This document shows positions 4,301-51,207 of a stretch of 64,000 bases of DNA, in pieces (positions within the stretch are counted from its first letter, which is position 1; each line of letters starts with the position of its first letter). Position numbers and translations under genes: made by a program. The notes under the pieces are model-generated. The model saw only the letters and a list, made by a program, of their open reading frames with translations, did not search any database and was not told where the DNA came from. This DNA is from Natranaeroarchaeum aerophilus (GTDB lineage: Archaea > Halobacteriota > Halobacteria > Halobacteriales > Natronoarchaeaceae), in assembly GCF_023638055.1 (NCBI RefSeq), contig NZ_JAKRVY010000002.1, forward strand, positions 372,001 through 436,000. Reading direction: 5' to 3'.

Positions 4301-5413
4301 TCACCGCATGGTCAGCGCTGCTGACCGATCGGAGAGAGCAACCGCGCCGAGGTAGATCGCAATCGCCACAACGATTACGGAACCACCCGACGGCAGGCTC
4401 TGCCAGATCGCGACACCGATCCCACCGAGAATCGACGCCTGCCCAAACAGCACCGACAGGTACAGCGTTTCCCGGAAGCCGCCGGCGATCTGCGAAGCGG
4501 CAGCGACCGGAATCACCAGTAGACCAGCCACCAGAATGACCCCGAGGATCTGCATCGCTCCGACGACAACGACTGCCGTCATCGTGACCAACAGAGCGTT
4601 GTACCATGCCACGTTGAAGCGCGCGACGCGGGCGGCCTTTTCGTCAAACGTGATGAACAGGAACTGTTTGTAGTTGATCGCAACGAGGGCAGTGACGACG
4701 ACAGTGAGGCTGGCGACGATCTGTGACCCCTGTGCAGTGACAACGGACATGTTCCCGAACAGGAGATCCTCGATCTCGATCGGGACGGAGACGAACTCCC
4801 GGCCCCACGAGATCAGTAGCGTCCCCACCGCGAAACTCCCCGAGAGGACGATGGCGATCGGTACGTCGCCGTAGCTGTCGGTGTGCTGTGTCAGCCACTG
4901 CAGGCCGAGAGCCGCAACGACACTCACGATCAGAGCGACGACCAGCAACTGGCCTCTCGACCCGCCGAGACCGAACAGTCCGACGACCACGACGCCGATA
5001 GCGACACCGGCAAACGCGGTGTGGGCCAGTGTCTCGCCGATCAGCGCCATCTGTCGGTGGACCAGATAGGTTCCGACGAGCGGGCCGACGATCCCGACCA
5101 GGATGCCAGTCGCGATCTGTCGCCACATGAACGGATGCTGAAAGACGTTCGTTCCGAGGTAGTAATCGAGCCACTCGCCGAGGATCAGGAACTGGTCGAA
5201 CGCCGTCCCGGCGAACGTGCCGACAGCTCCCGGTGCAGCCCGGAGCCAGTCGACGGTGATAAAGAGGACCATGCCGGTTCCCAGAAGCGCTGTGAGGACG
5301 AGCAGGACTTCCTCGATGCGTTGTCGGGTCGGCACGCTCCCTGCACGGAGTGACTGTTCAATCGGCTCGTTGGGAGTATCCTCGGTCCGCTCGTCGGCAG
5401 TATCCGTGCTCAT
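4301..5413 (-). CDS. Metal ABC transporter permease (ZnuB/MntB family)
   Basis: This 370-residue membrane protein has multiple hydrophobic segments and the family region GETLAHTAFAGVAIGVVVVG, followed by conserved SYGDVPIAIVLSGSFAVG. It belongs to the ABC-3 permeases that import Zn(II) or Mn(II). A long acidic N-terminus of about 35 residues precedes the first membrane segment. Its start overlaps the end of the ATPase gene by 4 nt (ATGA), and the binding-protein gene lies upstream, making a complete three-gene importer. Zinc is preferred as substrate from genomic context; related Halobacterium systems have been assigned to manganese, so the metal is not settled. Confidence 0.92.
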   Translation of the reverse strand: MSTDTADERTEDTPNEPIEQSLRAGSVPTRQRIEEVLLVLTALLGTGMVLFITVDWLRAAPGAVGTFAGTAFDQFLILGEWLDYYLGTNVFQHPFMWRQIATGILVGIVGPLVGTYLVHRQMALIGETLAHTAFAGVAIGVVVVGLFGLGGSRGQLLVVALIVSVVAALGLQWLTQHTDSYGDVPIAIVLSGSFAVGTLLISWGREFVSVPIEIEDLLFGNMSVVTAQGSQIVASLTVVVTALVAINYKQFLFITFDEKAARVARFNVAWYNALLVTMTAVVVVGAMQILGVILVAGLLVIPVAAASQIAGGFRETLYLSVLFGQASILGGIGVAIWQSLPSGGSVIVVAIAIYLGAVALSDRSAALTMR

Positions 5414-6153
5414 GGGTGGTTGTGATCGAGGACCCCGGTCGATTTACCGTAGGCTTCCGAGAGGGCATCGCTCTCGATGAACGAGACCGTGTCGCCGTGA
5501 TGATACAGCTCCCGATTGATGCAGGCGACCGTGTCGACGTGTTTGGTCAGGACGTCGACGTCGTGCTCGATCAGGATGATGGTAATCCCCTGTTCGTTGA
5601 GGTCATCGAGCAGGTCGTAGAACTCGGTTCGCGAGTCGGCGTCGACACCGACTGTCGGCTCGTCGAGCGCGAGCAGATCGGACTCGGACGCCAGCGCACG
5701 GGCAATGAAGGCACGCTGGCGCTGGCCGCCGGAGACCGCGCTGATCGGGCGGTGTGCGAGGTCGGCGATGTCGACCGTCCGAAGGGCGTCGTCGACTATC
5801 GCGTGGTCCTCGTCGCTCAGCCGCGAGTGGCCAACGTGGGCGAACCGGCCCATCAGCACAACTTCCCGAATTGTCACCGGCATCGCACCGCCGCGGTCGG
5901 TCGAGCGCTGGGCGACGTAGCCGAGGCGTTCGCCCGCCTCGAACTCCGCGGCCGGTTCGTCGAAGAGCCTGATACTCCCACTGTCGGGTTCGGCAAGCCC
6001 GATCATCAGGTGGAGCAGGGTCGTTTTGCCCGAACCGTTCGGGCCGATCATCCCCAGAAAGTCCCCGGCCTCGACTGACAGCGATATGTCTTCGACTGCC
6101 ACCGTATCCCCGTAGGAGAACGTCACGTCCTCCACGTCGACGACCGTTGTCAT
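5410..6153 (-). CDS. Metal ABC transporter ATP-binding protein
   Basis: The 247 residues contain Walker A (GPNGSGKTTLLHL, about 37-49), Q-loop region, the signature VSGGQRQRAFIARALA (about 139-154), Walker B LLALDEPTVGVD and the switch histidine in LIEHDVD. It drives import through the ABC-3 permease encoded downstream. It lies 45 bp downstream of the binding-protein gene and shares an ATGA overlap with the permease gene, so one transcript from the promoter before 7581 probably covers all three. Confidence 0.94.
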   Translation of the reverse strand: MTTVVDVEDVTFSYGDTVAVEDISLSVEAGDFLGMIGPNGSGKTTLLHLMIGLAEPDSGSIRLFDEPAAEFEAGERLGYVAQRSTDRGGAMPVTIREVVLMGRFAHVGHSRLSDEDHAIVDDALRTVDIADLAHRPISAVSGGQRQRAFIARALASESDLLALDEPTVGVDADSRTEFYDLLDDLNEQGITIILIEHDVDVLTKHVDTVACINRELYHHGDTVSFIESDALSEAYGKSTGVLDHNHP

Positions 6154-6198
6154 CTATGCACCGTTACCAGCAGGCTCGGTTTTACTCTTTCCATCGGA

Positions 6199-7581
6199 TT
6201 ACGCGCCGAGGGCCGCCCGGAGCGACGGCAGGTTGATCTCTTCCATCTGTTCGACCCAGCCCCAGCCGTTCTCGGACCACTCCGTAGTAGTGCCTTCCGC
6301 CGGAGTCAGGGGCTCTGCGTCCTCGACATCGCTGTTCTCGAAGATCGTCTCGACCATCTGTGGAACCTCCTGGCCGGGGTCCGACACCTCGAACGGATCG
6401 TAGAGTACGGTATCGATGTCCTCTTCCTCGATGAGGTCCAGCAGGTCGGCGATATCCTGCGGCGACACCGAGGCGTCCGGCGAGATTCCAGTCGGCGTCA
6501 CGAGCTCGAAGTCGTACCGTCGTTCGACGTACTGGAACGAGTCGTGTCCGGCGAACACAGCCACGTCCCTGTCCGCGTCCTCGGTTAGCTCCTCGAACTG
6601 CTGATCGACCGTTGCGAGGCGGTCGTTATACGCCGCGGCGTTGTCCTCGTACAGTTCCGCGTTATCGGGATCGAGTTCCCCGAGTTCGTCCGCGATGGTA
6701 TCGACGACGCGCTGGGCGAGCACCGGATCAGCCCAGACGTGCGGGTCCTGAAAGTCGTCCGCACCCTCGTCCTCGTACTCCTCGACGACCTCGAAGGATG
6801 AGGCCTCGTCCGCGGTGTCGTAGATCAGCTCGTCGCCCCGCCAGAGCTCGATGACGACGGCTGTTTGTCCAAGCTCCTCGCCGTGGAACTCGACACGATC
6901 GCCGTGAGATTCGATCCGAACGACTGATTCATCAGTATCGTCGGCGAACCGGGCGTCAAGCTGGTACTGCTCGTCCTCACCGAGTGGCACAACGTAGCCA
7001 TCCTCGTCCTCGATAACGACACCGAAGGGAACGCTCTCGTCGAGTTCGACATCGGGAACACCACCGTGCCAGTGCTCGACGTGCCAGTAGCCGATCCGCC
7101 TGTTCGAGCGGAGGTCGACGATATCGAACTCGTCCAGCTGGAGTGTTTCGGGCGGATACTCCCGTCCGTGATCCGGATCAGGGATCGGGTCATCGTCGAA
7201 GCCGATCAGGAACGGTTCGAGTCCCTGCATCCCGTCGACGACGCGTACATCCTCGTAATCGCGTTCGAGTTCGGCGGCGATATCCTGTGCCCACGAGAAC
7301 TCGGGCGTATCGAGATACAGGAACATGTTCGTCGCCGCGATCTCCCGCGCCAGATCGCCGTCGGGACTCCAGCCGTGGCCCATCGAACCGGTTTCGACCG
7401 GGTTCTCGAAGGAGAGTTCGTCACCGCTAACCTGCTCGGCCCAGTCCCACAGTGCAAAGAAGTTCGCGTACCCCCCTTCACCCTCGTCCCCGCCGAGCGG
7501 GCTATCGAGGCAGCCAGCCAGAGTGCCGAAAGCAGCAGCTCCGGCACCGGCTTTGAGAACGGAGCGTCGTGTCTGTTGCAT
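6199..7581 (-). CDS. Zinc/manganese ABC substrate-binding lipoprotein with large insertion
   Basis: A Tat signal (TRRSVLK) and lipobox LAGC (Cys at about 24) place this protein on the outer face of the membrane. Cluster A-I metal-site signatures are visible: His in GSMGHGWSP, His in DPHVWADP, His in AGHDSFQYVERRY and Asp in YDPFEVSD. At 460 residues it is much longer than the usual 300. Roughly residues 130-265 form an inserted beta-rich domain with WHVEHWHGG and RIESHGDRVEFHGEE, replacing the short His-rich loop common in zinc-specific members. The first His maps before the insertion and the others after it. It heads the importer operon behind the dyad at 7613-7643. Confidence 0.9.
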   Translation of the reverse strand: MQQTRRSVLKAGAGAAAFGTLAGCLDSPLGGDEGEGGYANFFALWDWAEQVSGDELSFENPVETGSMGHGWSPDGDLAREIAATNMFLYLDTPEFSWAQDIAAELERDYEDVRVVDGMQGLEPFLIGFDDDPIPDPDHGREYPPETLQLDEFDIVDLRSNRRIGYWHVEHWHGGVPDVELDESVPFGVVIEDEDGYVVPLGEDEQYQLDARFADDTDESVVRIESHGDRVEFHGEELGQTAVVIELWRGDELIYDTADEASSFEVVEEYEDEGADDFQDPHVWADPVLAQRVVDTIADELGELDPDNAELYEDNAAAYNDRLATVDQQFEELTEDADRDVAVFAGHDSFQYVERRYDFELVTPTGISPDASVSPQDIADLLDLIEEEDIDTVLYDPFEVSDPGQEVPQMVETIFENSDVEDAEPLTPAEGTTTEWSENGWGWVEQMEEINLPSLRAALGA

Positions 7582-7612
7582 ACGCTGTATTTTGTTAGTG
7601 TTGCGTAAAAGG

Positions 7613-7643
7613 ATTGTTATCTGGAAGTGTGTTTTTAATAATC
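7613..7643 (-). promoter_or_regulatory. Putative metal-regulon operator, site A
   Basis: A 31-bp AT-rich imperfect dyad (plus strand ATTGTTAT-N14-TTAATAATC) aligns without gaps to sites at 8567-8597 and 47337-47367. It ends 31 nt before the ATG of the binding-protein gene, immediately upstream of the weak TATA-like CCTTTTACGC. Identity and spacing support a common regulator; which protein binds is unknown. Confidence 0.6.
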
Positions 7644-7656
7644 TCGCTACGGTCGA

Positions 7657-8535
7657 CTACTCCGCGTGCAGCTCGGCGACCGCACGGCCGTGATCGAGTT
7701 CGACGATAGCGTACTCGTCGATGCCTGCACAGTCGTCGACGCCCGCTTCGGCGTGGCCGGCGTGCCCCTCGACGACCTCGACGGAGCCACCGGCAGTGAA
7801 GAAGGCGAAGGTGTCGCCGTCTCCGTGCTCGTGGTCGTGGTCGTCATCGTGATCGTCGTCGTGGTCGTGGTCGTCATCGTGATCGTCGTCGTGGTCGTGG
7901 TCGTCATCGTGATCGTCGTCGTGGTCGTCATCGTGATCGTCGTCGTGGTCGTCATCGTGATCGTCGTCGTGGTCGTCATCATGGTCGTCGTGATCGTCGT
8001 CATCCATCTCGAAGGCAACGTATCCACTCTCACCTTCAACTGTGATGTCGAACGGCTGGTGAGTTTCGGAGACGACCGGTGCGTCTTCCGGTGAATCAGC
8101 AGCTTCGATCTGGTCGCTGTCGTCGTACTGCATATGACCACAGGCGTGATCGATCTCGTCGTGCGAGAGGCCGTCGTGGTCGTGATCGTCGTCGTGGTCG
8201 TGATCGTCGTCGTGATCGTGATCGTCGTCGTGGTCGTGATCGTCGTCGTGGTCGTGATCGTCGTCGTGGTCGTGATCGTCGTCGTGATCGTGATCGTCGT
8301 CGTGGTCGTGATCGTCGTCGTGGTCGTCGTCGTGGTCGTGATCGTCGTCGTGGTCGTCGTCGTGACCGCCCACTCCTTCGACGAGGAACGTCACCGAAGC
8401 TGCGGCCGCTTCACCGTTCGCAGCCTCGCCGTTTTCATCACCGTTCGGGTCGTCGTCGTCGAGACAACCAGCGAACGCGCTTGCAGCCAGTAGTCCACCG
8501 GTACTCGCGAGCAGTCGTCGTCGTGTTTGCTCCAT
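7657..8535 (-). CDS. His/Asp-repeat metal-binding Tat lipoprotein
   Basis: The 292-residue protein has a Tat signal (TRRRLLAS), a lipobox FAGC (Cys 24), and two long low-complexity tracts of HDDD and HD units, one at about residues 58-121 and a second at about 170-240. Between and after them lie a small domain with CGHMQYDD and the C-terminal GHAGHAEAGVDDC region. Such repeats bind many divalent metal ions, so a periplasm-like zinc buffer feeding the neighbouring importer is likely. The ATG at 8533-8535 was chosen because the signal peptide starts there. The coding DNA is a near-tandem repeat of an 18-bp unit and is prone to length change. It lies upstream of the importer operon on the same strand and has its own dyad site. 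Confidence 0.85.
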   Translation of the reverse strand: MEQTRRRLLASTGGLLAASAFAGCLDDDDPNGDENGEAANGEAAAASVTFLVEGVGGHDDDHDDDHDHDDDHDDDHDHDDDHDHDDDHDHDDDHDHDDDHDHDDDHDHDDDHDHDDDHDHDGLSHDEIDHACGHMQYDDSDQIEAADSPEDAPVVSETHQPFDITVEGESGYVAFEMDDDDHDDHDDDHDDDHDDDHDDDHDDDHDDDHDDDHDHDDDHDDDHDHDDDHDDDHDHEHGDGDTFAFFTAGGSVEVVEGHAGHAEAGVDDCAGIDEYAIVELDHGRAVAELHAE

Positions 8536-8566
8536 ACTCCCAGTAACGGTAGTCGTATACAAATAT

Positions 8567-8597
8567 GTTATTATGTAGGTAGAGATTCTTAATAATC
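8567..8597 (-). promoter_or_regulatory. Putative metal-regulon operator, site B
   Basis: The plus strand reads GTTATTAT-N14-TTAATAATC over 31 bp. The last nine bases are identical to site A, and 23 of 31 positions match site C. It ends 31 nt before the ATG of the His/Asp lipoprotein and abuts a TATA-like ATATTTGTATAC at about 8552-8565. The spacing to the start codon equals that at site A. Confidence 0.62.
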
Positions 8598-46022: not shown

Positions 46023-47303
46023 TCAATCAGCAATACCGATCTCTTCGCCACCGTCGGTCGTTTCGTCCGATTCTTCCGTGTCGGTCGCTTCCCCGGTTTC
46101 GGGGGCCTCGAACGTCGGGAAGCGATCCTCGAAGGCGTCCCAGTCGGCCGCCATCTCCTCGTCGCTCAGCACGCTTTGCTCCAGATACGTCCGGAGTGCC
46201 TCGTGATCCATCTCGACGCCGATCAGTACCAGACGGGTGCCACGATCACCCCACTGGTCATCCCACTCGTCTTCGAGGCCGGGATGGGCCTCGAACTGCG
46301 CTTCCTGCTCTTCCGGTGGGAGACTCGCTACCCACCGACCGGCCGGTGCGACCCGGACCGACTGGCCCGCGACGTGGAGCATGATCGCGTTGTCCTCCCG
46401 ACCGGCGAGCCAGAAGTGACCCTTCGAGCGGACGACTTCGTCGGGGAACGAGTCAAGCAGCTCGGCAAACCGTTCGGGGTGGAACGGTCGGTCGGCCTCG
46501 AACACGAAGGAAGTAACGCCGTGTTCTTCCTCCGCGGACTCGTGTGGCTGTTGTAGCTCCTGCATCCAGCCAGCCGAGGCGCGTGCTTCCTCGAAGTCGA
46601 AGCGCTCGGTCTCGACGATGTCGTCGACGTCGACCCGGCCGTGAGTCGTCCGCAGGATCTCGGCGCGGGGCTGGAGGACTTCGAGCGTCGCTTCGATCTC
46701 CTCGAGCGTCGCTTCGTCGACGAGATCGCACTTGTTCAACAGGAGGACGTCACAGAACTCCACCTGTTCGACGAGCAGATCGCCGAGATGTTTCTCGGTG
46801 CCGTCGTCGTCGAGGACCTCGTCGGATTGCATCGCCTCGTGGAACTGGTGGGCGTCGACGACGGTGACCGTCGTATCGAGGTGACAGCCCGACAGCGGCT
46901 CGATACCGGTTTCTTCGTAGAACTCGGTCGGATCGAGATCGGACTGGTCAAAGCCCATCGTCAACGTCTGTGCGACAGGGAGTGGCTCGGCGACGCCGGT
47001 CGACTCGACGACGATGGCGTCGAACTCGCCCGCCTCGGTGAGCCTGTCGACCGCTTCGAGCAGATCGCCGCGAAGCTCACAGCAGATGCAGCCGTCGTCC
47101 AGTTCGACTAGCTCTTCCTCCTCGTCGGAGATGTCCGAGGATTCAGCGACCAGATCCGCATCGACGTTGACCTTGCCCATGTCGTTGACGAGGACCGCTA
47201 GCTCGCGGTCGCCACTCTGTGCAAGGATGTGGTTGAGTGTGGTGGTCTTTCCGGCACCTAGCATACCGGACAGTACCGTCACGGGAGTCGTCTCTTCGCT
47301 CAT
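46023..47303 (-). CDS. COG0523 metallochaperone GTPase (CobW/ZNG1 type)
   Basis: COG0523 GTPases deliver metal, often zinc under limitation, to client enzymes. The 426-residue protein has Walker A GMLGAGKTTTLNHI (13-26), the metal-binding GCICC motif (about 71-75), NKCDLVD as guanine-specificity element and a C-terminal CobW domain with FAELLDSFPDEVVRSKGHFWLAG. An acidic tail follows. The dyad site C and a TATA box at 47328-47338 precede it and are shared with the divergent FAD gene. Confidence 0.93.
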   Translation of the reverse strand: MSEETTPVTVLSGMLGAGKTTTLNHILAQSGDRELAVLVNDMGKVNVDADLVAESSDISDEEEELVELDDGCICCELRGDLLEAVDRLTEAGEFDAIVVESTGVAEPLPVAQTLTMGFDQSDLDPTEFYEETGIEPLSGCHLDTTVTVVDAHQFHEAMQSDEVLDDDGTEKHLGDLLVEQVEFCDVLLLNKCDLVDEATLEEIEATLEVLQPRAEILRTTHGRVDVDDIVETERFDFEEARASAGWMQELQQPHESAEEEHGVTSFVFEADRPFHPERFAELLDSFPDEVVRSKGHFWLAGREDNAIMLHVAGQSVRVAPAGRWVASLPPEEQEAQFEAHPGLEDEWDDQWGDRGTRLVLIGVEMDHEALRTYLEQSVLSDEEMAADWDAFEDRFPTFEAPETGEATDTEESDETTDGGEEIGIAD

Positions 47304-47336
47304 TCATTAACAACCTATGGCTTGGTCATAATATAA

Positions 47337-47367
47337 GTTATTATCTAAGTCACAGTTCTTATTAATC
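47337..47367. promoter_or_regulatory. Putative metal-regulon operator, site C (divergent)
   Basis: GTTATTAT-N14-TTATTAATC spans 31 bp, and 23 positions match site B. It lies 33 nt from the COG0523 ATG and 31 nt from the GTG of the divergent FAD gene, nearly midway between them, so a single site could control both directions. Confidence 0.62.
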
Positions 47368-47398
47368 TCTGGGGCATCGATCTCGGTACCGATCACTC

Positions 47399-48640
47399 GT
47401 GAGCAACGACACACACAGTCCAGAGCGGTTCGGGTGTGCTATCATCGGTGGCGGGATCCACGGGACGTATCTCGCGAACCGGCTAGTAGAGGACACCCAG
47501 TTTGGCCCAGCGGATATCGCCATCTTCGACCCACACGAGCAACTGCTGGAATCGTTCCGTCGGAAGGCCCAGCGGTGCGGGATGGAGACACTCAGATCTA
47601 CGTTCGTCCACCACGTCGGGGCGGAGGCGTTCGGCCTCGAACGGTTCGCAGACGAATACGATCGCAGGGACGAACTCGTCTCGACGATCGATTACCCGGC
47701 CCGGCCCTCGCTGTCCCTGTTTCTGGACTACGCCGACGAGATTATCGCGACCAGCGGTCTCGATAGCTGCCATCGCCGGACACACGTCGAGGCGATCCGC
47801 CCGACAGACAGGGATCGTCTCGCACTGGAGACGGTGGAGGGACGCGCGATCGCCGACACCTGCGTCCTCGCGATGGGACACGGAGGTCGCCACACCCGGC
47901 CGGACTGGGCACAGGGAATCGACGACGTGGTCCACGTCTGGGGCGAGTTTGATCCCGCGAGAACCGTCGACCGGACGCTGATCGTCGGTGGCGGGATCAC
48001 TGCCGGCCAGCTCGCCTGCACGCTGAGCGAGTCGGAAACGGTCGGGCTGGTCAGCCGACACCCGCTCGACTGGGAGGTCTCGGAAGCCGCGCCGCCGTGG
48101 ATCAACTGGTCACGAATCGAATCGGAGCTGCACACGCATCCGCCGGGATCGAAAGCGCGACTGGAGGTAGCGAGGGACGCGCGCAACGACGCGTCGATGC
48201 CGCCGTACCTGTACGCGGAACTGGACGAGCGGATCGACGAGGGTGCGCTGGTCATCGAGAGCGGCGACATCGAGACGGTTGAACGTCAAGACGACGGGAT
48301 TGCGCTGTCGATCCGCCACGTCAGGGACCTAGTCGGCGACCGGGTAGTCCTCGCGACAGGCTTCGAGCCGGTGTTCGAGCATCCGTTCGTCGACCGGGTC
48401 GCCCAGGAGTGCTCGCTCGCACGCGGATACGACGGAATGCCACTCCTCGATGACGAGACGCTCGCGTGGCGACACGATCAGGGGCAGCTATCGAACCTGT
48501 TCGTCACCGGCGCGCTGGCCCTCGGTACTGTCGGTCCCTATGCACCAAACATCCCGGGCGCACGGCGGGCGGCAGACCGGATCGTTCCGTCGATAGCGAC
48601 CCAGCTAGAGCGTGCTGACCTCGCAGCGATGGGGCCCTGA
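47399..48640 (+). CDS. FAD/NAD(P)-binding oxidoreductase, paralogue 1
   Basis: The 413-residue protein has an FAD Rossmann motif IIGGGIHGTYLANRL at the N-terminus and a second dinucleotide motif LIVGGGITAGQLA near residue 200. The GYDGMPLLDDETLAWR region matches the neighbouring paralogue. It resembles uncharacterised FAD proteins distantly like ornithine/lysine N-hydroxylases, so a role in metallophore chemistry is one possibility. No reaction can be assigned. It starts with GTG and faces the COG0523 gene across site C. Confidence 0.86.
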   Translation: MSNDTHSPERFGCAIIGGGIHGTYLANRLVEDTQFGPADIAIFDPHEQLLESFRRKAQRCGMETLRSTFVHHVGAEAFGLERFADEYDRRDELVSTIDYPARPSLSLFLDYADEIIATSGLDSCHRRTHVEAIRPTDRDRLALETVEGRAIADTCVLAMGHGGRHTRPDWAQGIDDVVHVWGEFDPARTVDRTLIVGGGITAGQLACTLSESETVGLVSRHPLDWEVSEAAPPWINWSRIESELHTHPPGSKARLEVARDARNDASMPPYLYAELDERIDEGALVIESGDIETVERQDDGIALSIRHVRDLVGDRVVLATGFEPVFEHPFVDRVAQECSLARGYDGMPLLDDETLAWRHDQGQLSNLFVTGALALGTVGPYAPNIPGARRAADRIVPSIATQLERADLAAMGP

Positions 48641-48659
48641 ACGTCTGGGAGAGGGTACT

Positions 48660-49922
48660 CTACGCTGGCACCATTGCTTCCTTCTGGGCGGTCAGGTGGT
48701 CGACGATCAGGTCACCCGCCCGTCGCGCGCCGATCACGTTGCGAGCGAATGGGCCAAGCACCTGCTCCGTGGCGGCTCCGGAGACGAGTACCCGCGAGGG
48801 GCTCCCGTCCTCGCATCGCCAGCACAGCGTCTCGTCGTCGAGAACCGGTGCGCCGCGATAACCAGACGCCAGTGACGTCTCACGGAACGAGCGGAACAGG
48901 CTGGCACTGTAGGGATTCCCAAAGCCAGTTGAACAGATCATCCGGTCGAGACACACCGCAGTCCCGTCCTCGCAGGTGACGACGACGGTCCCGCCCGCCT
49001 CGTTGGCGACCGTAATCTCCGATCGTTCGAGGGATATGCCGTCCCCCTGCAATGTCTCGCGCAATCGGTCGAAGGCGTATGGCGGGATCGCGCCGTCGTT
49101 TCGCGCCTGCTCGACGCGCTGCTGGCGTTCCTGCGAGGCGGGAGGCAGATCGTGGAGTTCCTCCACGACGCTGGAAAAATGCATCCACTCGGTGCCCGCC
49201 TCTAGCGACTCGACGCGGAACGGACTGCGCGCGAACAGCGTCACGGTTCTGGACGGACGCGCAATTGTCACTGCTAACTGTGCAGCCGTGATGCCACCGC
49301 CAACGATGCCGACGTGTTCGGTCTCGCCGATCACTTCCCGGTCGAACGACGGATCCCAGACGTGTGTGACCGGGGCGTCCTCCGGAAGCGTGCCAGCCCA
49401 CTCGGGGAGCGACGTCGCGCCGCCGTAGCCGGTCGCCAGGAGACACCAGTCGGATTCGATCCGCCCCGTGGTCGTCTCCACGGCAACCCCCGTGCGCTGC
49501 TCTCTGATCCCGGTTGCCCTGCCCTCGACGATGGACGAATCCAGATCGTACCGGTCGACGACCCACGCCGCGTGATCGAAAAAGAGGTCGGTCGTCGGCC
49601 GGTCACCGCCAACCCTGCTCGGATGCAGTTCGTCGTCACGCCCCCGCCCGCGTGCGAAATCACGCAGCGAAAACGGATCGCGAGCCACGTGGTGGACAAA
49701 GGGTGACCTGAGCGTCTCGACGCCACACTGCCGACACTTCCGACGAAACCCGCCGAGCAATCCGTCGGGTTCGACGATTCGCAGGTCCTCGTGCTCGACG
49801 ACATTCGCGTCGAGCAGCCGGATCGCGAGGTGGACGCCGTGGACGCCGCCGCCGATGATCGTCACGCGTGGACTGCTCCGTACGTCCGATCGATTGCTCC
49901 CTTGCATCGGTCGCTCGGTCAT
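48660..49922 (-). CDS. FAD/NAD(P)-binding oxidoreductase, paralogue 2
   Basis: The 420-residue protein shares the layout and many signatures of the convergent paralogue: TIIGGGVHGVHLAIRL, RQCGVETLRSPFVHHV, VGGGITAAQLA, ARNDGAIPPYAF and GYRGAPVLDDETLCWR. The pair share the tail PF/YAxNxxGARRA. The ATG at 49922 lies just after site D; an internal ATG at 49907 is also possible. The two paralogues are tail-to-tail with a 19-bp gap, most likely an inverted duplication. The reaction is unknown. Confidence 0.86.
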   Translation of the reverse strand: MTERPMQGSNRSDVRSSPRVTIIGGGVHGVHLAIRLLDANVVEHEDLRIVEPDGLLGGFRRKCRQCGVETLRSPFVHHVARDPFSLRDFARGRGRDDELHPSRVGGDRPTTDLFFDHAAWVVDRYDLDSSIVEGRATGIREQRTGVAVETTTGRIESDWCLLATGYGGATSLPEWAGTLPEDAPVTHVWDPSFDREVIGETEHVGIVGGGITAAQLAVTIARPSRTVTLFARSPFRVESLEAGTEWMHFSSVVEELHDLPPASQERQQRVEQARNDGAIPPYAFDRLRETLQGDGISLERSEITVANEAGGTVVVTCEDGTAVCLDRMICSTGFGNPYSASLFRSFRETSLASGYRGAPVLDDETLCWRCEDGSPSRVLVSGAATEQVLGPFARNVIGARRAGDLIVDHLTAQKEAMVPA

Positions 49923-49926
49923 CTCC

Positions 49927-49957
49927 TGTTAATAAAATGTTCGAGTATATTAATAAC
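49927..49957. promoter_or_regulatory. Putative metal-regulon operator, site D
   Basis: On the minus strand this reads GTTATTAA-N14-TTATTAACA, the same two half-sites and 31-bp span as sites A-C but less conserved inside. It overlaps the TATA-like TTAATATA of paralogue 2, whose ATG follows by 4 bp. It is the weakest of the four matches. Confidence 0.48.
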
Positions 49958-50055: not shown

Positions 50056-51207
50056 ATGGCTGCATCACTCACCGCGGAGGAATTTCGCGATCTACAGGAC
50101 CGGGGAGAGTCGTACGCGCTCGTCGATACCCGTCCAGCAGAGAGCTTCGAGTCGTGGCATATCGAGGGGGCGATCAACTACACGTACAAGCCCCACCACG
50201 AGTTCGACGTCGAGGACTTTCGGGCGGAGACGGGACTGGAACCGGCCGATCGAATCCTCACGATCTGTGCGAAAGGCAAATCATCGTTCGACATCGTTGA
50301 CGAACTGGCCGCGGCGGGCTACGACGACGTCACGGTGATCGAGGACGGCATGCGTGCCTGGAGCCGGGTGTACGACGTGACGACTGTCCCAACCGAGAGC
50401 GACGGAATCGAACTCCTGCAGGTCCAGCGCCGCGCGAAGGGCTGTCTCGGCTACATTGTCGGCTGTACGGAGACGGGACGGGCGGCCGTGATCGACGCGA
50501 CCCGACACGTCGAGGAGTTTATCGAGGCTGCCGGGTCGGCGGGCTACGAGATTGCCACCGTCTTCGACACCCACGTCCACGCCGACCACATCTCCGGCGG
50601 TCGGAAGCTTGCGGACCAGCTAGACCTTCCCTACTATCTCGGCGAGGACGCCACAGACCGCGGCGTCGCTTACGAGTACGAACCGCTGGCGCGAAACGAG
50701 GTCGTCACCGTCGGCGAGGTTGCTGTCAAGGCGCTCGCCACGCCCGGCCACACCTCCGAGATGGTTAGCTACCTGCTCGACGGCGAGGCAGTCGCGACCG
50801 GTGACACACTCTTTGTCGACTCGGTGGGACGCACCGAACTCCAGTTCGGCGACGCGGAGGCCGCGGAGGGTGCCGACCAGCTCTACGACTCCCTGCACGG
50901 GACGCTGCTTGCGTTGCCCGAGGGCGTGACCGTCCTGCCGGGTCATTTCGCCGTCAGCGATGCGGGCGAAACCGGCGAGCTGACCCGTGGTGAGCCGATC
51001 GTCGACTCGGTCGGGACGATCCGAACGACTGTCGATCTACTCGGTCGTCCGCGGGACGCGTTCGTCCAGCACGTCACCGAGCACCGCCCCGAGAAGCCGC
51101 CGAACTACGAGCGGATCATCGGCCTCAATACGGGCCGCAAAGCGGTCGACGACGAGACCGAGGCGATCGAGCTCGAACTCGGACCGAACCGCTGTGCAGC
51201 AGAGTGA
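50056..51207 (+). CDS. Rhodanese-metallo-beta-lactamase fusion (persulfide dioxygenase-like)
   Basis: Residues 1-110 form a rhodanese domain with the active Cys in TICAKGKSSFD. The rest is a metallo-beta-lactamase domain with THVHADHISGG, ATPGHTSEMVSYL and GDTLFVDSVGRTEL. ETHE1-type enzymes oxidise thiol persulfides to sulfite, and rhodanese fusions couple this to thiosulfate formation. In haloarchaea the thiol could be gamma-glutamylcysteine. The order here is rhodanese first. It is 383 residues, cytosolic, and followed by yjbQ after 7 bp. Confidence 0.9.
   Translation: MAASLTAEEFRDLQDRGESYALVDTRPAESFESWHIEGAINYTYKPHHEFDVEDFRAETGLEPADRILTICAKGKSSFDIVDELAAAGYDDVTVIEDGMRAWSRVYDVTTVPTESDGIELLQVQRRAKGCLGYIVGCTETGRAAVIDATRHVEEFIEAAGSAGYEIATVFDTHVHADHISGGRKLADQLDLPYYLGEDATDRGVAYEYEPLARNEVVTVGEVAVKALATPGHTSEMVSYLLDGEAVATGDTLFVDSVGRTELQFGDAEAAEGADQLYDSLHGTLLALPEGVTVLPGHFAVSDAGETGELTRGEPIVDSVGTIRTTVDLLGRPRDAFVQHVTEHRPEKPPNYERIIGLNTGRKAVDDETEAIELELGPNRCAAE

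Follow-up and report, generated by a model that had tools for sequence, protein, structure and literature searches.

Why should one inverted repeat stand at the promoters of a zinc-type ABC importer and its neighbour, and again between the divergent genes of a COG0523 GTPase and a flavoprotein (FAD1) and beside a second flavoprotein gene (FAD2)? An earlier note on this DNA had proposed that the repeat ties the two loci together in a response to zinc limitation that includes the FAD paralogues. The stretch analysed (the window) comprises 64,000 nt, positions 372001–436000 of contig C2 of a 3.29 Mb haloarchaeal assembly from Natranaeroarchaeum (G000), and its features are collected in Table 1. 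The genome-wide work on the dyad in this genome consisted of pattern and protein searches only. We favour, with a probability of about 0.6, the reading in which C and D act as operators for a zinc-starvation regulon of haloarchaea that is repressed by a metal-loaded protein of the NikR family.

Table 1. Features of the window, in window coordinates.
Feature	Position	Strand	Remarks
Zinc-type ABC importer	4301–7581	-	three genes, from domain matches
ZnuB-like	4301–5413	-	PF00950
ZnuC-like	5410–6153	-	importer gene
ZnuA-like	6199–7581	-	PF01297
Dyad A	7614–7641	-	predicted operator of znuACB, 32 nt 5' of the ZnuA start
His/Asp-rich probable lipoprotein	7657–8535	-	low complexity, long HDDD repeats
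Dyad B	8568–8595	-	perfect match; 5' of the His/Asp-rich lipoprotein gene (probable ATG ~8535)
COG0523 GTPase, ZigA-like	46023–47303	-	CobW N and C domains: PF02492 160 bits, PF07683 86 bits
Probable TATA box of COG0523 promoter	47327–47336	-	CTTATATTAT; kept beside the dyad in other genomes
Dyad C	47338–47365	.	TTATTATCTAAGTCACAGTTCTTATTAA; between divergent COG0523 and FAD1 promoters
FAD1 flavoprotein	47399–48640	+	two dinucleotide-binding motifs (NAD_binding_9), from domain search
FAD2 flavoprotein	48660–49922	-	convergent paralogue, 39% identical to FAD1 by sequence comparison
Dyad D	49929–49956	-	TTATTAATATACTCGAACATTTTATTAA; predicted operator over the FAD2 promoter/start region

The consensus TTATTA-N16-TAATAA is common to sites A, B, C and D, each with at most one mismatch in a pattern search of the window, so that C and D do carry the same dyad as the importer sites. 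Exactly four such matches occur in the 64,000 nt. When the spacer was varied from 8 to 24, N16 gave four matches and every other spacing none, and in 60 dinucleotide shuffles of the window the mean and the maximum number of dyads were both 0. Shuffling only the short AT-rich intergenic pieces produced a dyad in 6 of 5000 trials for the C piece and in 0 of 5000 for the D piece. The position of the dyad is likewise fixed, with start codons 32–34 nt away at A, at B and on both sides of C. Site C had been described as almost midway between the COG0523 and FAD1 starts, and it is; the distances are 34 nt to the COG0523 ATG (47303, minus strand) and 33 nt to the FAD1 GTG (47399, plus strand) rather than the 33 and 31 nt quoted. 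FAD1 and FAD2 are convergent, as had been said and as the gene coordinates show. Site D was correctly assigned to the FAD2 promoter; it lies over and just 5' of the start, and its end is 6 nt from the FAD2 ATG (49922, minus strand), whereas A, B and C, like the uS14 site described below, stand at −34. A gene for a rhodanese and metallo-beta-lactamase fusion (50056–51207) is divergent from FAD2, about 100 nt from dyad D, and is not obviously in the regulon.

At one mismatch or fewer, the whole genome contains seven dyad places, five of which precede genes with a zinc theme, namely A–D and a second uS14 gene (C3:166459). The remaining two, one before a histidine kinase gene (C1:311955) and one within AT-rich DNA (C13:27628), were taken as chance matches. 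No dyad was found near the third COG0523 gene of the genome (C5:101412).

The earlier note would have abandoned its proposal had the dyad not been conserved at orthologous loci. We collected 30 ZnuA orthologues (50–85% identity) by protein similarity, not by motif, from genomes of families f1, f3, f4, f9, f10 and f11. In 30/30 the dyad ends 31–37 nt 5' of the aligned start; 17 of the 30 dyads are perfect and 29 have no more than one mismatch, while N16 is variable. The spacing again peaks sharply, with 36 matches at 16 and 0 at 14, 15, 17 and 18, and a conserved TATA-like element, CTTTTA, directly follows the dyad on its 3' side. Across 18 whole genomes the exact dyad occurs 20 times, mostly at ZnuA, compared with once for the pattern read backward. 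A gene related to the His/Asp-rich lipoprotein stands 5' of ZnuA at 24/30 loci, and the protein is likely a surface zinc buffer. The dyad is also present in 7/7 divergent COG0523/FAD1 intergenic regions of other genera, where a conserved AATATA box adjoins it, and every one of the 14 FAD2 orthologues (≥55% identity, a set that includes the window's genome and a near-identical sister) carries a dyad in the 900 bp upstream when up to two mismatches are allowed, against a background at that stringency of 4 in 104 random 1-kb pieces (~4% per kb). The operator thus spans at least six family-level groups, and we conclude that the repeated dyad is a real, widely conserved switch site in haloarchaea, although neither binding nor expression data are available.

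Gene order is conserved together with the dyad. The arrangement in which COG0523 and FAD1 diverge from the dyad and FAD2 points back toward FAD1 is seen again in other genera, in the comparison that the earlier note had asked for. Gene calls in these genomes were heuristic (codon GC bias and BLAST), and labels such as Natrialbaceae-like are our own reading from named relatives. Natrialbaceae-like genomes keep the order of the window and add small genes and a second uS14 gene of the type described below 3' of COG0523 (L099, L100). The COG0523/uS14 operon of L099 encodes three small conserved proteins: one of 85 aa without a Pfam match (8074–8331), a Cys-containing one of 70 aa (8343–8555) and one of 50 aa with two zinc-finger-like motifs (7544–7696). 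Haloferacaceae-like islands have ZnuA-ZnuC-ZnuB-FAD-DUF7124 as one gene string, with the dyad 5' of ZnuA in several, and adjoin COG0523, uS14, FeoB-like and second flavoprotein genes; in f5 genomes a FAD gene lies directly 3' of znuACB. FAD and znuACB apparently form one operon in Haloferacaceae-like genomes. A genome of another family (G220) has three perfect dyads within 8 kb: one is close to FAD, one close to the second flavoprotein, and one precedes ZnuA. We also observed that a FeoB-like GTPase/Gate-domain transporter and a Pyr_redox_3 flavoprotein occur in zinc islands, often as a unit with the second uS14 (L159, L160, L268, L018, L107–L114). Another conserved string (L091:11907–14569, L109, L114, L159) combines a CbiL-like methyltransferase, a MoaB-like gene and COG0523 in one or two copies, next to NikR-type regulators; it could be a second metallochaperone module.

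The zinc theme, which the earlier note had rested on COG0523, gains support well beyond that family from the uS14 paralogue, which shares the dyad or the operon. In the window's genome a dyad copy lies 34 nt 5' of the second uS14 start, as at A–C, if the second possible start (MTDTAEE) is taken. The paralogue reads CRATGR...LCRQSFR where the canonical protein (C2:353727) reads CQRCGR...LCRQCFR, so that two of the four zinc cysteines are lost; it therefore qualifies as a C-minus uS14, defined by loss of CxxC...CxxC ligands with a canonical copy alongside. The same losses were found in 13/13 second uS14 copies read. FAD genes occur in 47 and the second uS14 in 25 of 242 haloarchaeal genomes, and every one of the 25 also has FAD (p = 2 × 10−21 by Fisher's exact test, uncorrected for kinship; the presence lists were copied by hand from result tables). 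The combination that we take to define a functional Zur-like regulon, in which one conserved operator serves a zinc importer, COG0523 and a ribosomal paralogue depleted of zinc ligands, is thus present.

Conserved at both loci and shared with the uS14 paralogue, the dyad does tie the COG0523/FAD locus to the importer. From its conservation, the co-occurrence with uS14 and the linkage to znuACB we infer that the FAD genes belong to the dyad-linked set, as had been suggested, and therefore to the zinc regulon, in the absence of any zinc-response data. Their products resemble N-hydroxylating flavin monooxygenases and flavin disulfide reductases; substrate and chemistry are unknown. The structure model of FAD1 has pLDDT 69 and pTM 0.48, and its assignment as a lysine/ornithine N-monooxygenase or a YpdA reductase, suggested by good E-values, was not accepted at TM ~0.3, leaving the reaction undecided. 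Likewise, the GTPase meets the COG0523 domains but not the ZigA equivalog NF038288 (414 bits, cut-off 600).

Which protein might read the dyad? Fur/Zur (PF01475) has no match in the window's genome and was rejected; marginal matches over the cut-off occur in 4 of the 30 dyad genomes. The dyad does meet the 6-16-6, 28-bp layout of a NikR operator in the spacing scan and whole-genome counts, without binding data. The E. coli NikR operator is GTATGA-N16-TCATAC (PMC7055735); the geometry is common to both, whereas the haloarchaeal half-site is TTATTA and its target genes belong to zinc starvation rather than nickel import. The haloarchaeal islands are also linked to NikR-family proteins in which the metal ligands are conserved. 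The genome encodes four NikR-family proteins (C2:119932, C3:177884, C3:178319 and C2:458025). The requirement of an RHH domain plus NikR_C is met at L145, L146 and L147 (PF08753 69–91 bits, PF01402 above cut-off), candidate c14 can be aligned to NikR structures along its length, and the metal ligands His/His/His/Cys are conserved in alignment to 2bj1 and 1q5v. The NCBIfam NikR (nickel) cut-offs are not met, with 66/83 bits (PRK02967) and 104/111 bits (PRK01002) for c14 and 78/83 for c11. RHH plus NikR_C genes stand beside COG0523 or uS14 in f3, f5, f10 and f11 islands, and in G006 and G220 the NikR/COG0523 promoters contain a perfect TTAATA-N16-TATTAA. Additional copies of NikR co-vary with FAD between genomes (37/11/10/184, p = 10−24), with some genomes having extra copies but no FAD.

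Within the window's genome, the NikR pair on C3 adjoins the second COG0523 gene, and no good dyad was found at that COG0523-2/NikR-B promoter. The NikR-family gene at C2:458025 (plus strand) and a second ZnuA-like gene (C2:456450–457862, minus strand) point away from each other, with a perfect GTATTA-N16-TAATAC between them (C2:457903–457930; L277:11404–11431); the two probably form a metal-uptake unit apart from the first, under a NikR operator of its own. The family of C2:119932–120360 (L145/L191) is present in 241/242 haloarchaeal genomes, mostly at 75–86% identity; its target is unknown, and TTATTA or TTGTTA often stands directly 5' of its ATG.

None of the NikR paralogues occurs in all of the dyad genomes: G052 and G220 are without the 129-aa type, the extra 143-aa type is absent from G051, G058, G062, G092, G124, G134, G153 and G228, and a close copy of the type that is nearly universal elsewhere is missing from G069; no NikR gene was found near the island in Natrialbaceae-like genomes. 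We rejected c14 as sole reader, since it is missing from G052 and G220, and did not accept NikR-A (the near-universal 143-aa type) as a proven reader, as its own promoters lack a conserved 6-16-6 dyad and its neighbouring CDF exporter is found only in this genus. A NikR-family reader is therefore only inferred, and we consider it somewhat better supported than not, with the paralogue unresolved. The same mismatch in distribution leaves room for the same zinc-starvation operator and regulon to be read by a different protein, such as a DtxR/MntR-like (ZntR-type), Lrp, ArsR or unknown haloarchaeal factor, and a DtxR-like ZntR has indeed been predicted for znuABC and COG0523 in Methanosarcina (Haas 2009, PMC2770081). 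We regard this as possible but tentative, because half-sites about 22 bp apart in a 6-16-6 layout are the NikR geometry and NikR-family genes occur in many islands; the exclusion of DtxR is weak without a genome-wide DtxR search.

In the mechanism that we propose for a NikR-family repressor, the protein, metal-loaded when zinc is plentiful, would bind TTATTA-N16-TAATAA as a tetramer, the two half-sites, about two helical turns from each other, each being taken by an RHH dimer. It would then cover BRE/TATA, block TBP/TFB and keep the promoter off, a positional inference from the dyad abutting or covering BRE/TATA at the inspected sites. Under zinc scarcity the apo-protein may be released and all members of the regulon switched on, yielding ZnuACB, the His-rich zinc-binding lipoprotein, the COG0523 metal chaperone, two FAD enzymes and C-minus uS14, and the last of these could replace zinc-containing uS14 and free its zinc. 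The direction of regulation is itself inferred. An activator binding just 5' of BRE/TATA at low zinc would suit the ZnuA loci, where the dyad occupies −60 to −33, just 5' of the TATA-like element, a position used by archaeal activators. Inspection of D and of the FAD1 side of C makes this unlikely, as the TATA box itself seems to lie beneath the dyad there (that of FAD1 is probably formed by the right arm of C), and repression fits better.

The identity of the metal is inferred too. The importer falls below the NCBIfam zinc equivalog cut-offs, so that by itself it does not rule out Mn, Co or Ni, and since the candidate regulators are NikR homologues and the islands also carry CbiL-like methyltransferase and FeoB-like genes, the dyad might answer nickel, cobalt, manganese or general metal stress, with zinc just one input. 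We think this improbable, because a shortage of zinc best accounts for the zinc cysteines that the second uS14 has lost, and COG0523, ZnuABC and a zinc-free ribosomal paralogue make up the classic bacterial zinc-limitation set. That the dyad is merely a by-product of two opposed TATA boxes at divergent promoters can be dismissed despite arms that resemble AT-rich core promoter sequence, as at C, since A, D and the 30 ZnuA loci mostly lack a divergent gene, ZnuA has a separate TATA-like element 3' of the dyad, and the spacing is exactly 16.

We found no report of this haloarchaeal dyad operator or regulon in the literature searched, from which the majority of subscription-journal papers and of preprints were missing. 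The one zinc-uptake regulon of Archaea found there is the bioinformatic Methanosarcina prediction, and Archaea are described as lacking Fur/Zur. That ZntR regulon (PMC2770081) resembles ours in joining archaeal znuABC and COG0523, a family it links to zinc in all kingdoms, under a shared predicted operator; it differs in a DtxR-like predicted regulator and a restriction to Methanosarcina, and the section consulted mentions no ribosomal paralogue or FAD genes. The second uS14 is very probably the same kind of gene as rps14b, a distant uS14 paralogue in ~20% of haloarchaeal genomes whose function was listed as unclear in 2021 (PMC8305020). To that report we add the operator, the rationale of cysteine loss and the complete co-occurrence with FAD, and we propose for rps14b a function in zinc starvation, which would extend zinc-sparing ribosome remodelling to Archaea. 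Two uncharacterised flavoenzyme families are placed in zinc metabolism by dyad and gene linkage, and the precise operator, member list and candidate regulator family can be tested in culturable genera. The closest parallel is the bacterial Zur regulon of B. subtilis, E. coli and mycobacteria, with its znuABC, COG0523 (YciC), zinc-free ribosomal paralogues including uS14 and shared palindrome. The system described here, in contrast, is archaeal, in a genome where no Fur/Zur protein was found; its 28-bp TTATTA-N16-TAATAA operator is unlike the Zur box, and its members include NAD_binding_9 flavoproteins and a His-rich lipoprotein. It is an evenly balanced possibility that haloarchaea possess a complete zinc-starvation response, with zinc sparing by C-minus uS14, a zinc-sensing branch of NikR in place of Zur and a flavoenzyme family at its core.
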